A DNA stretch of 32,003 nucleotides from assembly GCA_018970045.1 (NCBI GenBank), contig JAGWXC010000005.1:1-32003 (forward strand), given 5' to 3'. Below are positions 13,240 through 21,521 of the stretch, one piece after another. The notes beneath the pieces are model-generated. The model was not told the origin of the DNA, made no database searches, and saw only the letters and a list, made by a program, of their open reading frames with translations. The number at the start of each line of letters is the position of its first letter. The first letter of the stretch is position 1. A program made the translations under genes and the position numbers. The stretch comes from Planctomycetota bacterium. GTDB taxonomy: Bacteria; Planctomycetota; Phycisphaerae; Phycisphaerales; SM1A02.

Positions 13240-13301
13240 GGACTGCCTCCTGTGCCCGGTACCGTACCTGCATGCTGGATCTTGCCTGCACAATCGTCGT
13301 C

Positions 13302-14327
13302 ATGACGTCCGTGGATGATCGTGTCGCCGCGCCATCGGTCCCCGGCAGCACGCTGGTCGATCGCGTGGTCGCGGCGCCGGGTCCGATCCCTGCTGACGTG
13401 CGTGAGCGCTTCGGGCTCAAGCCGTTCTACGAACAGTGCATCGTGTGGGAAGGACTGCCGTTCGTGGCCAGCGGCAAGGTCGATCCGCGTGCGCTGCAGG
13501 AAGCCGTCTGGCTCGCGCGGCGCATGCTGCGCAGCCGCCCCGAGATCGCGCGGGCGATGGGTGCCAACGCCGTGCGTGTGGCGATCATGGATGTGGGCGA
13601 GGTCACCACCGACGTGCCCGAGCACAGCGACCTCGAGCCCAAGGGCTACTGGGACATGCGTGCGCGTGGGCTCGGTGCCACGCCGCATCGGCCCGCCGTG
13701 AGTGCCGGCGAGGAGAACCTGCTCACGTACCCCGGTGATCCCTACGCCACCGAGAGCATCTTCATCCATGAGTTCGCGCACGCGATCCATGAGATGGGCC
13801 TGTCGACGGTCGATCCAACGTTCGATCGCCGGCTCGAGGCGGCCTACGACGCGGCCATGAAGAAGGGCCTGTGGCAAGGCGCCTATGCACGCGAGAATCG
13901 CATGGAATACTGGGCCGAGGCCACGCAGTCGTTCTTCGACACCAACCGTGAGAACGACCACCAGCACAATCACGTCGACACGGTGGCGGAGCTGAAGGAG
14001 CACGACCCTGCGGTGTGGGAGCTCTGCATGGAGGTCTACGGCCAGCCATGGGCGTACACACGCGCCGATGCGCGCGCGGGCCAGGAGCATCTGGCCGGGT
14101 GGGATCCTGCGGCGAGTCCGACGTTCGTGTGGGCGGATGCCGTGCGCGAAGCGTGGCGCCAGTGGGAGTTGCTCGAGCAGGCACGCAAGGCCGGTCGAGC
14201 AGGGCGTGGCCGAGGCGACGGCGCGAGTGCGGCACCGGAAGGATCATCGGACGGTGACAACTCGCAAGGCGCCGATCCAAGCACCGATCCGGGCGACGGC
14301 GGCACGGCAGGCGCCAAGCCTGAATGA
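13302..14327 (+). CDS. Putative zinc metallopeptidase (zincin) of uncertain family
   Basis: ATESIFIHEFAHAIHEMGLS (HExxH) followed downstream by RMEYWAEATQSFFDT; Gly/Asp-rich disordered C-terminus. Confidence 0.65.
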   Translation: MTSVDDRVAAPSVPGSTLVDRVVAAPGPIPADVRERFGLKPFYEQCIVWEGLPFVASGKVDPRALQEAVWLARRMLRSRPEIARAMGANAVRVAIMDVGEVTTDVPEHSDLEPKGYWDMRARGLGATPHRPAVSAGEENLLTYPGDPYATESIFIHEFAHAIHEMGLSTVDPTFDRRLEAAYDAAMKKGLWQGAYARENRMEYWAEATQSFFDTNRENDHQHNHVDTVAELKEHDPAVWELCMEVYGQPWAYTRADARAGQEHLAGWDPAASPTFVWADAVREAWRQWELLEQARKAGRAGRGRGDGASAAPEGSSDGDNSQGADPSTDPGDGGTAGAKPE

Positions 14328-14331
14328 GGTG

Positions 14332-14919
14332 CTAGCGCGTGCGAGGCCGCTGGTATTCGTCGAGGTGCTGGATCGACTGACGCGCGCACCGCGCCAGCAT
14401 CGACTCCATGGCGACCGGTCGGTAGCGATGGCAGTCCACGCCGACATCGGCGGATCGACTTTGGCTCGGCAGGCCGCCATGCAGGTGGCCGTGCAGGTGC
14501 AGCGAACCGTTCCATCGGCCCTGCCAGGCGAGCATCGGATAGTGGCAGAGCACGATGCGGTGCTCGCCGCGCTCCCATCCCTTCCAGCTGGTGATGTCAT
14601 GCACGGAGTCGAACAAGCGCTCGAAGCCCGGCAGTCGCGGATCGTGGTTGCCGCGCACCAGATGAACGGTGGAGCAGCGGATCCGTTCACGGCACTCGCG
14701 CGCGAGCTTCACGGCCTTGCGCGGCTGCTTCTTCCAGGCGAGTCCGGCCACGAAGTCGCCGAGGTGCCAGAGCTCGTCGCCCTTGCCCACGGTCGCGTTG
14801 ATCCAGTCGATGAGCGTGTCGTTCATCTCTTCCACGCTGCCGAACTCGCGCTTGTACAGCGCGAGGGCTTCCTCGTGCCAGAAGTGCGTGTCGCTGGTCA
14901 CCCAGATCGTCTTGGCCAT
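14332..14919 (-). CDS. Calcineurin-like metallophosphoesterase
   Basis: IWVTSDTHFWHEEAL, LWHLGDFV, HLVRGNHDPRLPG, IVLCHYPMLAW, LHLHGHLHGG. Confidence 0.92.
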   Translation of the reverse strand: MAKTIWVTSDTHFWHEEALALYKREFGSVEEMNDTLIDWINATVGKGDELWHLGDFVAGLAWKKQPRKAVKLARECRERIRCSTVHLVRGNHDPRLPGFERLFDSVHDITSWKGWERGEHRIVLCHYPMLAWQGRWNGSLHLHGHLHGGLPSQSRSADVGVDCHRYRPVAMESMLARCARQSIQHLDEYQRPRTR

Positions 14920-14975
14920 GGGTGCAGGCTAGCGCCGGGGCATGGGCCGCCGGCTTCACATGATGAAGCCCACTG

Positions 14976-17525
14976 GTGTTCAATGCACCCATGCAGCTGA
15001 TGTCGACTGTTCCATCGATCCCTGTGCTCCGAGGATTGCTCTTGGTCGTGGGCACCAGCGGTGTGGTGGCGTGCTCGGGGGCACCGGTGGGTTCGGCTGT
15101 CGTGCTCGATGGCTCCAACCCGGCCGCCGCGTCGCCGGAACAGGATGGCCGACTGGCCACGCGCATCACGCATGGACCGATCCTCGGGGAACTCGATGGC
15201 CGTGGCATGCAGGTCTGGGTGCGTCTTGACGGCGAGCCCGGTGAGCATGTTGCGCTCGAGGTCCTTGATGCGCAGGGCACGACAATCGAGCAGCGACTCC
15301 CCACCACCGTTGCCGAGCGTCGGACCCCGCGCACGCTGGTGTGGTCGGTTCGGGATCTCGCACCGGGGACCAAGCATCGATATCGCGTCACTGGCGTGAT
15401 GAGCGGCACATCACGCGACGCCGATGGCTTCGACGGCACGATCCGCATGCTGGCGGCCGATGCGTCGTCGGCCACGCTGGCGATCGGAAGCTGCGCCGAC
15501 GAGAAGGAGGGGACGCAGAAGCTCCTGCGCACGATCGCTGCGCTGCATCCGGATGCAGTGGCCTTCATCGGCGATACCCCGTACATCGATACGACCGATC
15601 TGGCGCGGCAGCGCAAGCGCTACGGCGAGTTCTTCTCGCAGCCGGGCATGGCGGAGTGGCTGTCGTCCACGCCGCTCGCGTCGGTCTGGGATGACCATGA
15701 CTTCGGCCTCAACGACACCGATGGACGGCTCAAGGGCAAGGAGCGCAGCCTGAAGGCGTTTCGCGAGTGGCATGCGAATGCAGCGTTCGGCACCGGGACT
15801 GAAGGTGTGTACCACCGATTCCGGCTCGGACCGATGGAGGTCTTCATGCTCGACACGCGGTGGTTTGCGCGGACGGCGCGTTGTGGCTCGTTCGATGCCG
15901 CGGATCCCGTGATCGATGGATCGGCGGATGCAGCGGCCTCTGGCGGATGGACGCTCCTGGGCCGCGAGCAGTGGGGCTGGTTGCGCGATGGCCTTGCCGC
16001 ATCGACCGCTCCGATCAAGGTGATCGTGAGCAGCATGGTGTTCAACAGCTCGGTCCGGCCGCTCAAGACCGACTACTGGGGCATGTACCCAGAGGAGTAC
16101 GCGCGGTTGATGCGCCTAGTGCGGGATGTCCCCGGCGGCGTGGTCCTCGTGAGCGGCGATGTGCATACGAGCCGCCTGCTCCTGCACCCGACCACGGCGA
16201 CCGCCGGTCGTGATCTGTGGGAGATCGTGTCGAGCCCGATGCATGCTGGCGTGCATGACTCGAGCCTGTGGTCGCGCAGCGACTGGGTGAAGGAGCACTT
16301 CCCCCATCCGAACATGATGGCGTTGCTTACGGCGCAATTCGATGCAGGCTCAGCCGCGCTCAGCGTGAAGTTCGTCGACAAGGACGGCGCGGTCTTCCTC
16401 GATCGGGAGCTTGTGCGTGTGCCATGGGCTGGGGCAGTGGTCCCGATGTCGCACCCTTCAGCGGATCCACCGGCGTCGGCCCCTCGATCGCCCCAACGAC
16501 CCTCGTCAGCCCCGGCTTCGCCGGCGCCGGTGTCCGTGCAGCCTGATCCCCGCGCCGCGCTCGCCGCTGCCACGAGCGATCGCAGCGTGCTCCATCGCCT
16601 GCGCCGAACCCTCGAGCCGTGGCTCATGGATGGCGAGCAGCCTGCTCCGACGGCGGGATCCCTGGCTGGGTCACGAGCTCCGACGGTCCCCACGATCGAC
16701 GTGCTTCATTCGCTGGTCGGCGGCACCGAGGCATCGCGTGCAAGGCTGTCGCTGCATCCCGTCGATGCCGAGCCTGCGCTGGTGACGGCGTATGCCTCGC
16801 CGCGCTTGCGCGAATCGGCCAACGGCCATGCGCGCACGGCGTTCTTCGCGCGGCCGACGTGGCTGCCGGCGGGTGGCCAGGGTCCGACGCGGGCACAGTG
16901 GCTCGCTGCAGCGGCGAAGGATCCGGCGGCGCATCCCTCGATTGCGCACGGTCCTGATGAGTTCAGCGTGTACCTCGCAGCCGTCAATGGCAGTGTGCAA
17001 CTCGAGCGTGCCGACGGATCGATGCGCTGCCTCGTGCATGACGGCACCAATGAGCGGGAGTACTCCAGCCTGGCGAAGTTGCTCGTGGCGGATGGTGCGC
17101 TCGATCCGCGAGCGGCAACGCTGGATGGCCTGCGTGAGCTCTGGCAGCGTGCTCCGGACATCGTGCGGGCAGCCTGCGATCGCAATGAGCGATTCGTCTG
17201 GTGGCGCGAGGTTCCGTGCGAGCGCTGGCCTCAATCACCCTTCGGACTCACGTTGATGGCTGGCCACGCGGTTGCGGTCGATGCGCGCGTGATGCCGATC
17301 GGGAGCCTGCTGCTGCTGGTGCCGGAACCGGAACAGCCGGGTTTACCAGCCGACCTTGCTGCGCCGCGCATCGTCTACGCCGCCGATTGCGGTGGCGCGA
17401 TCACGGGTGCAGGTCGGGTGGATCTGTATCTGGGTGCAGGCGATGAGGCGCTGGCCACCGCCGGCCGCGTGCAAGCCCGGATGCGCGTGTTCCGCATTGC
17501 TGCGGATGGACTGCGGCAGCCGTGA
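14976..17525 (+). CDS. PhoD-like alkaline phosphatase fused to C-terminal MltA/3D-domain lytic transglycosylase-like region (lipoprotein)
   Basis: Lipobox-like LLLVVGTSGVVACSG. PhoD motifs IGSCADEK, AFIGDTPYID, WDDHDFGLND, FMLDTRWF, VLVSGDVHTSRLLLHP. Pro/Ser-rich linker (~16450-16560). C-terminus LVTAYASPRLRES, EYSSLAKLLVADGAL, NERFVWWREVP, GLTLMAGHAVAVDARVMPIGSLLLL, YAADCGGAITGAGRVDLYLGAGDEALATAGRV resembles MltA. Start could also be the ATG at 14991. Confidence 0.8.
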   Translation: MFNAPMQLMSTVPSIPVLRGLLLVVGTSGVVACSGAPVGSAVVLDGSNPAAASPEQDGRLATRITHGPILGELDGRGMQVWVRLDGEPGEHVALEVLDAQGTTIEQRLPTTVAERRTPRTLVWSVRDLAPGTKHRYRVTGVMSGTSRDADGFDGTIRMLAADASSATLAIGSCADEKEGTQKLLRTIAALHPDAVAFIGDTPYIDTTDLARQRKRYGEFFSQPGMAEWLSSTPLASVWDDHDFGLNDTDGRLKGKERSLKAFREWHANAAFGTGTEGVYHRFRLGPMEVFMLDTRWFARTARCGSFDAADPVIDGSADAAASGGWTLLGREQWGWLRDGLAASTAPIKVIVSSMVFNSSVRPLKTDYWGMYPEEYARLMRLVRDVPGGVVLVSGDVHTSRLLLHPTTATAGRDLWEIVSSPMHAGVHDSSLWSRSDWVKEHFPHPNMMALLTAQFDAGSAALSVKFVDKDGAVFLDRELVRVPWAGAVVPMSHPSADPPASAPRSPQRPSSAPASPAPVSVQPDPRAALAAATSDRSVLHRLRRTLEPWLMDGEQPAPTAGSLAGSRAPTVPTIDVLHSLVGGTEASRARLSLHPVDAEPALVTAYASPRLRESANGHARTAFFARPTWLPAGGQGPTRAQWLAAAAKDPAAHPSIAHGPDEFSVYLAAVNGSVQLERADGSMRCLVHDGTNEREYSSLAKLLVADGALDPRAATLDGLRELWQRAPDIVRAACDRNERFVWWREVPCERWPQSPFGLTLMAGHAVAVDARVMPIGSLLLLVPEPEQPGLPADLAAPRIVYAADCGGAITGAGRVDLYLGAGDEALATAGRVQARMRVFRIAADGLRQP

Positions 17526-18527: not shown

Positions 18528-18590
18528 GGGGTCTGACCGTATCAAGCGCATCATCGGCGATTGAGGGCAGAGAATTACACTGTTCGGCCC

Positions 18591-21521
18591 ATGGACCGCG
18601 AATCGAACGATCCCTCCGGGCTGATCGACGTCCATGCCTGCTTCGAACTGCTCTGCGAGGGGCGCCAGACCGAGGCCCGCGCGCGATTTGCGCCGGCCAT
18701 CGTCAACGAAGCGCGCGCGCTGCTGGGGTTGAACGATGCCATGCAGTCGCTCGAGGCCGCAGGGAGCACGTCACGCGATGGGCTTGGCGCCGGCACGCAG
18801 CTGGGCGAGTTCACCATCCTGCGGCCGCTTGGTGAGGGTGGCCTGGGCCGTGTCTTCGAGGCCATCGAGCAGAGTGTTGGTCGACATGTGGCCCTGAAGG
18901 TCATGCCGGCCATCTGGCGCGCCGATGATCGCCCGCTGCGCCCGGCCGAGGCACGGCTGCTCGCGCAGCTTGAGCACCCCGGCATCGCGCGCCTGTATCG
19001 AACCGACGTGACCACCATCGATGGGCGCCGCTGGTTCTGGATTGCCATGGAGCTCGTCCGCGACGCGCGAACGCTTACCGAATGGGCAAGGGCCGGCACA
19101 CGCACGATCGAGGAGCGCTTGGCGGCCATGGCGACGGTGGCCGAAGCCGTGCAGCATGCGCACGGTCGTGGCGTGATCCACCGGGATCTCAAGCCCGACA
19201 ACGTGCTGGTCGATGCGAACGATCGTCCTGTCGTGATCGACTTCGGGATCGCAGGCCTGTCGGAGCAATCGCCAGCCGTCACGAACGTGCTCCTTGGCTC
19301 GCGCCTTGAGGGCACGATGCGCTACGTCGCGCCTGAGGCGCTCGATCCATCACGGCTGCCCGATGTGCGATGTGACCTCTTCGCGCTCGGCGCAATGCTG
19401 TACGAACTGATCGCCGATGAGCCGCTTCGACGGCTGTCCGGCGCAAGCATCGCGCAGCAGCTGCAGGTGGCGAGCCAAGCGGTGGTCGTGCAGTTGCCGC
19501 GCCTGTCGGGCCTGCGGCGCACTGAGCTCGAGCGCATCGTTCGCCGTGCCACGGCGCATGATCCCGCCGATCGGTACCAGACCGCTGCGCAGTTCGCCGA
19601 TGACCTGCGGCGTCACGTGCGTGGTGAGCCGGTCCTCGTGGCCGAGCAGGGGCAACTCGAGCGGCTGCGGCGCACCATATGGCGCAACCGCGTGCCGGTA
19701 TCGGTCGGGATCGGTGTCGTTGGATCGCTGCTCGCGCTCTCGATCCTCGCAGTGGATCAGGCGTCGAAGGCCCGGCATGAGGCGCGTCTGGCACGCTTGG
19801 CCGTGGCATCGCGTGCCATCCTCGATGCCGATCGCCTGGTGATCGAACAGTGCCTGGCATCACTGCAGGACGAGCCGCCGACGCTTGAGCGTGACACGTT
19901 GCAGCGCATGCTTCGGGTCGGGCAGGATGGCTTGGTCCCCATTCCATGCCTCGACTGGATCGTGGTGGATGGCATCGGCGTTGGCATGTTCGAGCGTGCG
20001 GCATCACCCACGTCACCGACCGCTGTCGTGCAGTGGATCGATGGCCAGTTCGGGTGGACGCTCGATCTGCAATCGGCTGAAGTTGGTGGCTTGGCCCTGT
20101 CCGATGATCGCTCTCGAGTTTTGGTGTGCACGCAGCAAGGCGATGTCGGTTGGCGGGAGCTTGCATCAGGCGTGGGGGTAGAGCTGTCGCTGTCATCGGG
20201 CAACGCCGCGTGCAACCAAGGTGAAGTGGCACAGACGCGTTCCGGTCACATGGTCTGTGCAGGAGAAGGGCTGTACGTGTACGAGCCCGGCGCCGAAGCG
20301 CCCTCGTGGTCGGTCCAGCTCGGCATCGGTCTGGTGCGTGATGTTGCGCCATGTCCGACTGATCCTCATGTCGCACTGCTCGGCGCGGAGGGCGGTTCGA
20401 TCCTGGTGAATGTCGCAGCACGAACGATCACGCGCCTTGGCGAGCCAGGCGAACGTGCCGTGTCCGTGGGATGGTCCGATGACGGGCGCATGGCGTTGGT
20501 CGGTGGCCGCGCGCTCTCGGCCTTCGATCCCCGCACCGGCGCAAGGCTGTGGAGAGCACTCGGTCATCAGTCGCTGATCTGGGGTGTCACAGGGCTCGAT
20601 GCCCAACGCTGCGCAACGGCATCATCCGACGGTTCGGTCCGGCTCTGGTCCGTGCTGGATGGCGCGGCGCTCGGAGCCATCCCGTTGTCATCGGACCGAC
20701 TGTGGAGTCTCTCGACCGACGGAGCGTCCCTGCATTCCGGCGGATCACGTGGCGCCTATACCGTGTCCTCGGATCAGATCAAGCGTTGGTTCGGCACTGC
20801 TGGCGGAAGTCTCGCGTTCGACGCGCAATCTGGCATCGGTTGGGTCGACGCGGCCGACGTGGACCGGATCCAAGTCGCGCACGCCGATCGCGCGCCTCGA
20901 CTTCTTGCGATCGAGGGCGTTGGCATCGTGCAACGTGCCGCCATGGCCAAGGACGGCAGCGTGATCGCAGTGGCAGGTGATGCCGGCGCCGTGACGTTGG
21001 TGTCATCCGAAGGGCGCGTGCTCTGGACGGATGTGAAGCACGCATCGCCCGATGACCAACATGAGCCTCAGGGGTTTCGATCGCTCGACATCGCAGGTCC
21101 GGACGGTCGAGTGCTTCTGGGAGCGCGTCAACGCGGGGCGGTCTGTCTGGATCCAGCCGATGGCCACGAGCGCTGGGTGACTCGCCTGCCCAGCGAGTGT
21201 GAGAGTGCAGCCTGGGCGCCCGATGGTCGTCATGCGTACATGGTCACGCGCGAGGGCCAGCTGGCGATGCTCGATGGACGCGATGGTTCGGTGCTGCAGA
21301 TCGTGCAGCCGTTCAAGCAGGGTGCCGGGTCGATCACGGTCTCGGATGACGGGCTTCGCATCATCGCAGGCAGTGCCGAGGGCGCCATCGTGATCTTCGA
21401 TGCGGGGACCTTGGAGGAGCTGATCCGGATACCGGTGACGCAGCGCCTCATCGAACATGTGTGGATCGACGAGCTGGGCATCCACGCGGTCGATACGTCC
21501 GGCCTGCACCTGGTGCGCTGA
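18591..21521 (+). CDS. Membrane Ser/Thr protein kinase with C-terminal WD40/PQQ-like beta-propeller
   Basis: LGEFTILRPLGEGGLGRVFEA, HVALKVM, GVIHRDLKPDNVLVD, VVIDFGIAG, GTMRYVAPE; TM segment VPVSVGIGVVGSLLALSILAV; C-terminal repeats such as RCATASSDGSVRLWSVLDGAALG. Confidence 0.95.
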   Translation: MDRESNDPSGLIDVHACFELLCEGRQTEARARFAPAIVNEARALLGLNDAMQSLEAAGSTSRDGLGAGTQLGEFTILRPLGEGGLGRVFEAIEQSVGRHVALKVMPAIWRADDRPLRPAEARLLAQLEHPGIARLYRTDVTTIDGRRWFWIAMELVRDARTLTEWARAGTRTIEERLAAMATVAEAVQHAHGRGVIHRDLKPDNVLVDANDRPVVIDFGIAGLSEQSPAVTNVLLGSRLEGTMRYVAPEALDPSRLPDVRCDLFALGAMLYELIADEPLRRLSGASIAQQLQVASQAVVVQLPRLSGLRRTELERIVRRATAHDPADRYQTAAQFADDLRRHVRGEPVLVAEQGQLERLRRTIWRNRVPVSVGIGVVGSLLALSILAVDQASKARHEARLARLAVASRAILDADRLVIEQCLASLQDEPPTLERDTLQRMLRVGQDGLVPIPCLDWIVVDGIGVGMFERAASPTSPTAVVQWIDGQFGWTLDLQSAEVGGLALSDDRSRVLVCTQQGDVGWRELASGVGVELSLSSGNAACNQGEVAQTRSGHMVCAGEGLYVYEPGAEAPSWSVQLGIGLVRDVAPCPTDPHVALLGAEGGSILVNVAARTITRLGEPGERAVSVGWSDDGRMALVGGRALSAFDPRTGARLWRALGHQSLIWGVTGLDAQRCATASSDGSVRLWSVLDGAALGAIPLSSDRLWSLSTDGASLHSGGSRGAYTVSSDQIKRWFGTAGGSLAFDAQSGIGWVDAADVDRIQVAHADRAPRLLAIEGVGIVQRAAMAKDGSVIAVAGDAGAVTLVSSEGRVLWTDVKHASPDDQHEPQGFRSLDIAGPDGRVLLGARQRGAVCLDPADGHERWVTRLPSECESAAWAPDGRHAYMVTREGQLAMLDGRDGSVLQIVQPFKQGAGSITVSDDGLRIIAGSAEGAIVIFDAGTLEELIRIPVTQRLIEHVWIDELGIHAVDTSGLHLVR

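Follow-up and report, generated by a model that had tools for sequence, protein, structure and literature searches.

A single-polypeptide fusion of a PhoD-like phosphatase and an MltA-type lytic transglycosylase in three genera of one planctomycete family

The stretch of DNA analysed here (32,003 nucleotides of a planctomycete genome, referred to as the window) contains a long open frame that an earlier note, made from the letters alone, read as a PhoD-like phosphatase joined to an MltA-type lytic transglycosylase, raising the questions as to whether the two halves are truly made as one polypeptide, whether each retains the residues of an active enzyme, and what a protein of this composition would do in the cell envelope. 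The combination of domains is new to our searches, although each half is a well-known enzyme on its own, and it occurs in a little-known freshwater group within a phylum whose wall biology is, to our knowledge, poorly known.

Anatomy of the fused gene and its product

The coordinates of the fused gene and its parts are listed in Table 1. The frame is uninterrupted along the full 849 residues counted from GTG, with no stop codon inside, exactly as first described. Comparison within the genus makes it more likely that translation starts at ATG 14991 than at the listed GTG 14976, because the corresponding Met is kept in all six members of the window's genus (g1) that have a readable 5′ end and the GTG codon is not. 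As in bacterial lipoproteins, a lipobox (VVAC) precedes the first mature Cys, and its counterparts across the same six members read LAAC, LTAC, LVAC and LSAC, in addition to VVAC; all lipobox and signal peptide calls were made by inspection by eye. The fused proteins of two related genera (g33 and g35, described below) have a hydrophobic N-terminus without a lipobox Cys, and lipidation would therefore be a trait of the window's genus rather than of the fusion; the lipobox-like N-terminus originally noted thus holds for the former and fails for the other two genera.

The N-terminal half matches the Pfam PhoD family (PF09423) over residues 168-431 (E = 5.9e-29, 101.7 bits against a curated cut-off of 27). 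Sequence searches of the PDB with this half recover the solved Bacillus subtilis PhoD structure 2yeq (E = 2e-8) as well as 9uya, and a profile built from its relatives matches 2yeq with an E-value of 3.5e-37; in the structural alignment the two are about 18% identical. Mutation has identified C180, D207, D265, D266, N271, N272 and D436 of B. subtilis PhoD as required residues (PMC4223295), and alignment to 2yeq places C173, D200, Y203, D239 and D240 of the window protein at C180, D207, the Tyr ligand, D265 and D266 respectively, and N246, D247, D395 and H397 at N271, N272, D436 and the His ligand. The one change, from Asn to Asp at N272, is a substitution reported within the PhoD family (PMC4223295). 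The complete predicted Fe/Ca ligand set (Cys, Asp, Tyr, Asp-Asp, Asn-Asn/Asp, Asp, His) is therefore present, which together with the PF09423 match bears out the claim that the PhoD-type motifs are complete within the first ~480 residues. The C-terminal helix that caps the active site of B. subtilis PhoD is missing from most family members (PMC4223295), and in the AlphaFold model of the window protein there is no confident helix right after residue 483. The window protein thus resembles B. subtilis PhoD in the fold of its N-terminal half, the Cys-type Fe ligand set, the Tyr ligand, the Ca ligands and export, but differs in lacking the capping helix, in the Asn to Asp change at one Ca ligand, and in carrying a fused transglycosylase.

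MltA enzymes constitute lytic transglycosylase family 2, characterized by the domains PF03562 and PF06725. Both are found in the C-terminal half, with the MltA-specific domain spanning residues 638-744 (E = 6.1e-14, 52.8 bits against a cut-off of 24.3) and the 3D domain residues 765-839 (E = 2.7e-14, 53.6 bits against 23.8), so that all three families anticipated for the two halves score above their Pfam cut-offs. The MltA/3D identity of the segment proposed to have an MltA layout is thereby upheld; its length is about 310 residues (534-843) and not the ~270 first estimated. By sequence, this half matches the solved lytic transglycosylase 6qk4 in the PDB (E = 5e-22), with 7esj, 2pnw, 3czb and 2g5d also recovered, and the profile built from relatives matches 6qk4 with an E-value of 1.3e-67 and E. 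coli MltA (2ae0) with one of 3.5e-55.

The catalytic Asp, predicted to be retained, is D816 (codon 17421-17423), which we equate with D308 of E. coli MltA because Ala occupies that column of the alignment in 2pjj, the E. coli D308A mutant. All three 3D-domain aspartates (D769, D804 and D816) are kept, as is T604, which corresponds to Thr99; the roles of these aspartates, and of the Thr in orienting the catalytic Asp, have been described previously (PMC4499186). Among the residues of MltA that contact the substrate (Tyr121, Gln182, Ser184 and Tyr200 in precursor numbering; PMC8562663), the two Tyr and the Ser are kept as Y606, Y696 and S673, and Gln182 is replaced by Asn671, a position that is also Asn in the ordinary MltA encoded by the same genome. 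Compared with E. coli MltA and Burkholderia LtgG (6qk4), the window protein has the same fold in its C-terminal half, the same three aspartates, orienting Thr and substrate-contacting Tyr residues and, in the window's genus, the same lipoprotein N-terminus, but its MltA half sits C-terminal to a second enzyme in the same chain, has a shorter N-terminal region, and carries the Gln to Asn change.

An AlphaFold model built on a 101-row alignment is highly confident for residues ~61-483 (with pLDDT values of ~94 across most of the PhoD half) and 590-845, with low confidence for residues 491-570, pLDDT values of 30-45 in the linker, and a pTM of 0.60. A Foldseek search with the model returns 2yeq as the top match (E = 1.2e-23), followed by MltA structures (E = 4e-20 to 2e-15), and structure prediction thus supports both halves of the proposed architecture. 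The model is that of two confidently predicted domains on a flexible linker, with nothing to suggest that the two active sites would be held in a fixed mutual arrangement.

Table 1. Positions of the fused gene and its predicted parts in the window
Feature	Position	Strand	Remarks
PhoD-MltA fusion, whole open frame	14976..17525	+	849 aa from GTG 14976; 844 aa from conserved ATG 14991
Lipoprotein-type signal peptide	14991..15074	+	Lipobox V-V-A-C; Cys33 codon 15072-15074
PhoD-like phosphatase half, residues 61-483	15156..16424	+	N-terminal beta-sandwich and metallophosphatase core; Pfam, profile, AlphaFold, Foldseek
Predicted Fe/Ca ligands	15492..16166	+	Invariant among fused proteins; aligned to B. 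subtilis PhoD 2yeq
Predicted ligand codons (first base)	C173 15492, D200 15573, Y203 15582, D239 15690, D240 15693, N246 15711, D247 15714, D395 16158, H397 16164	+	
Pro/Ser/Ala-rich linker, residues 484-533	16425..16574	+	Predicted disordered; variable in length; faster evolving
MltA half, residues 534-843	16575..17504	+	Low-confidence N-terminal helices, barrel/insert, 3D region
MltA-specific insert domain PF03562, residues 638-744	16887..17207	+	Pfam
3D domain PF06725, residues 765-839	17268..17492	+	Pfam; aspartates D769, D804, D816

Distribution, ancestry and surroundings of the fusion

Eight full-length orthologues, each in a single frame and diverging down to ~40% identity, are present in three genera of one planctomycete family. 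Four of these are in the window's genus (G000, G116, G120 and G122), in which the fused frame of three further genomes is interrupted by contig ends (G117, G118 and G121); three are in g33 (G097, G098 and G099) and one is in g35 (G125). Every fused protein tested contains all three Pfam domains. Scans of 392 genomes of the phylum, 298 of the class and 400 of the order revealed no further fused frame, the next-best matches there being to the PhoD half alone or the MltA half alone, and none was seen among 78 relatives drawn from 84,980 species via peptide patterns; because these scans score few candidates per genome or depend on seed peptides, a rare distant fusion could be missed. The survey across Planctomycetota called for at the outset therefore finds the architecture in g1, g33 and g35 only, and the fusion is confined to these three genera of one family and is not a general planctomycete trait. 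The named matches among viral models searched with Foldseek are phosphatases only, none of them described as a fusion, and we found no description of a PhoD-MltA fusion in the open-access literature (subscription papers being outside the scope of the search), in agreement with the earlier note.

An artefactual origin, in which neighbouring genes were joined by misassembly or by chance in-frame extension in a G+C-rich genome, has to be considered since related genomes do have long chance open frames in front of ordinary MltA genes. However, the identical join is present in eight separately assembled full-length genes from three genera, the linker shrinks to about a dozen residues in one full-length orthologue, and no second signal peptide is present at the PhoD/MltA junction of any of them. 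Because eight orthologues share the join, it is neither an assembly error nor a chance in-frame joining; we regard the probability of an artefact as negligible, and the single-polypeptide fusion as genuine. Related G+C-rich genomes contain very long frames ahead of ordinary MltA lipoprotein genes (L185-L189) that could pass for fusions, and candidates suggested by long frames in G002, G041, G142, G169 and G178 were rejected, the extra N-terminal sequence in each preceding an ordinary lipoprotein start.

In a tree of PhoD sequences the fused proteins form one clade (100/99), which also contains the stand-alone PhoD of G124. The fused rows also cluster in the MltA tree, though weakly (82/28) and with long branches, apart from the branch of the ordinary MltA of the same genome. 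The G124 protein (contig L015, 1447-2742, +) is a lipoprotein with a VTGC lipobox, nested within the fused clade; it is the nearest non-fused relative of the window protein's phosphatase half but has no MltA half, its frame closing at a stop codon with opposite-strand genes downstream. In G124 the MltA half was either lost or never joined, loss being the simplest reading, and the simplest history overall is one fusion with at least one later loss of the MltA half, the alternative being two fusions. Because G124 keeps only the PhoD half, covalent linkage has been dispensable at least once. Adjacent separate PhoD and MltA genes in sister genera were considered as ancestors of the fusion and rejected, as they lie on different contigs where checked.

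Both halves evolve under purifying selection, with dN/dS values within the genus (Nei-Gojobori) ranging from 0.09 to 0.16 in the PhoD half and from 0.12 to 0.30 in the MltA half. The linker and signal region are looser than either half, with a higher dN in the linker, although the linker samples are short. These values bear on the possibility that the MltA half is a non-cutting peptidoglycan anchor for the phosphatase. The substitution of Asn671 for one substrate-binding residue and the availability of another, ordinary MltA for wall cutting would fit such a role, but catalytic residues should decay in a domain that serves only as an anchor, whereas all three 3D aspartates, the catalytic one included, and the orienting Thr persist even between fused proteins of only ~40% identity, and the half remains under selection; we consider an anchoring role decidedly unlikely.

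Strong synteny around the fused gene is limited to the genus; the fused genes of g33 and g35 lie close to homologues of genes located ~10 kb downstream in the window. The neighbours examined include no phosphate-regulon or wall-synthesis gene, and nothing related to the wall or to phosphate is conserved in all three genera. Immediately upstream of the fused gene, positions 14954-14990 contain CTTCACATGATGAAG, with a 5-bp inverted repeat, followed by TGGTGTTCAATGCACCC; this stretch is mostly recognisable in the genus members compared and may be an operator or promoter common to the fused gene and a divergent phosphoesterase gene. The latter (14332-14919, −) is head to head with the fused gene and encodes a small calcineurin-like phosphoesterase (PF00149, E = 1.3e-8) with >90% identity in two other genomes of the genus. 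Beyond it, at 13272-14327 (+), is a gene for a 351-aa protein without a Pfam match, 83-88% identical in two other genus genomes and containing the HExxH-type motif HEFAHAIHE, which looks like a zinc peptidase site. Downstream, an ECF sigma factor gene (PF07638; 17868-18635, −) overlaps head to head a gene (18561-21521, +) for a large protein resembling a Ser/Thr kinase and rich in repeats towards its C-terminus, and this pair is kept in the genus. A further neighbour within the genus is a Gfo/Idh oxidoreductase.

Possible roles at the cell wall

We favour, with a confidence of about 0.7, the reading that the fusion is a bifunctional enzyme of the envelope, in which the release of phosphate is combined with the turnover of peptidoglycan, and from the sequences and models it very probably has both of the predicted activities. 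The computational basis consists of two folds, kept catalytic residues, a fusion conserved in three genera, and purifying selection. The protein would be exported, as a lipoprotein in the window's genus and without a lipobox in the two related genera, and would comprise a PhoD-family phosphomono/diesterase of the Fe/Ca type connected through a flexible linker to an MltA-type lytic transglycosylase that retains catalytic competence. The MltA half would cut peptidoglycan strands with formation of 1,6-anhydroMurNAc, and the PhoD half would free phosphate from organic phosphate esters beside the sacculus. Counting against this reading are the lack of phosphate or wall genes among the neighbours, the missing MltA half in G124, the absence of a fixed arrangement of the halves in the AlphaFold model (pTM 0.60), and the Gln182 to Asn671 change.

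Family searches of the window's genome provide the background against which these activities would operate. The fused protein is its one PhoD, and neither PhoA nor PhoX is found in ten genomes with the fused gene, so that among PhoA-, PhoX- and PhoD-type phosphatases the window's genome yields only the fused PhoD half. It is for this reason that phosphate acquisition at the cell wall, linked to turnover of that wall, seems the most likely role, although we put it forward tentatively. There are two 3D/MltA proteins, the second of which is an ordinary MltA lipoprotein, and the fusion is therefore an additional enzyme. A penicillin-binding-protein transpeptidase is also encoded, making peptidoglycan synthesis plausible.

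LCP ligases attach phosphodiester-linked polymers to MurNAc. No LCP ligase (PF03816) is found in 14 genomes of the family, with seven control genomes positive, and no TagB/F (PF04464) in the window's genome, again with positive controls. These absences argue against a home-made teichoic-acid-like substrate, and a wall polymer of this type belonging to the cell itself was rejected. The two-activity envelope enzyme originally proposed thus stands with respect to an exported fusion, two intact predicted active sites and purifying selection on both halves, whereas its proposed action on phosphorylated wall polymers is unsupported or at best inferred.

The same absences weigh on a second reading, in which the PhoD half frees C-6 of MurNAc in the cell's own peptidoglycan from a phosphate group or a phosphodiester-linked polymer before the MltA half cuts. 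Lytic transglycosylases can act only where the C-6 hydroxyl of MurNAc is free, and it has been proposed that O-acetylesterases (Ape) clear acetyl groups from C-6 ahead of the transglycosylase (PMC1199599); for B. subtilis PhoD, a phosphodiesterase, wall teichoic acid has been put forward as a substrate (PMC4223295), and physically coupling the two steps would explain the fusion. However, with LCP and TagB/F missing there is no known route to the substituent and no known phosphoryl source, and we therefore consider this quite improbable. Less probable again is the stricter form in which the MltA half cuts only after the PhoD half has stripped an undescribed phosphoryl or phosphodiester group from MurNAc C-6; if true, these bacteria would have a novel phosphorylated peptidoglycan whose synthesis does not involve LCP ligases.

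The absence of an LCP system, taken together with the proposed activity of B. subtilis PhoD on teichoic acid, would be compatible with a substrate of foreign origin, such that the protein, released or surface-bound, degrades teichoic-acid-bearing Gram-positive debris for its phosphate and opens the glycan. Records of close relatives carry lake and pond sample names, and the g33 and g35 proteins, lacking a lipobox, could be released. Lipoprotein anchoring in the window's genus suggests cell association, however, and Pfam finds no extra wall-binding domain; scavenging of foreign walls is thus unlikely.

Under the favoured reading of a bifunctional envelope enzyme, a stable enzyme fusion across three genera would physically link phosphate release to peptidoglycan cleavage. 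This makes a question about these bacteria directly testable, namely whether their wall contains phosphate, or whether their only recognised alkaline phosphatase is merely held at the wall, with natural comparisons provided by the species without the MltA half and by relatives in which the two enzymes are encoded by separate genes.
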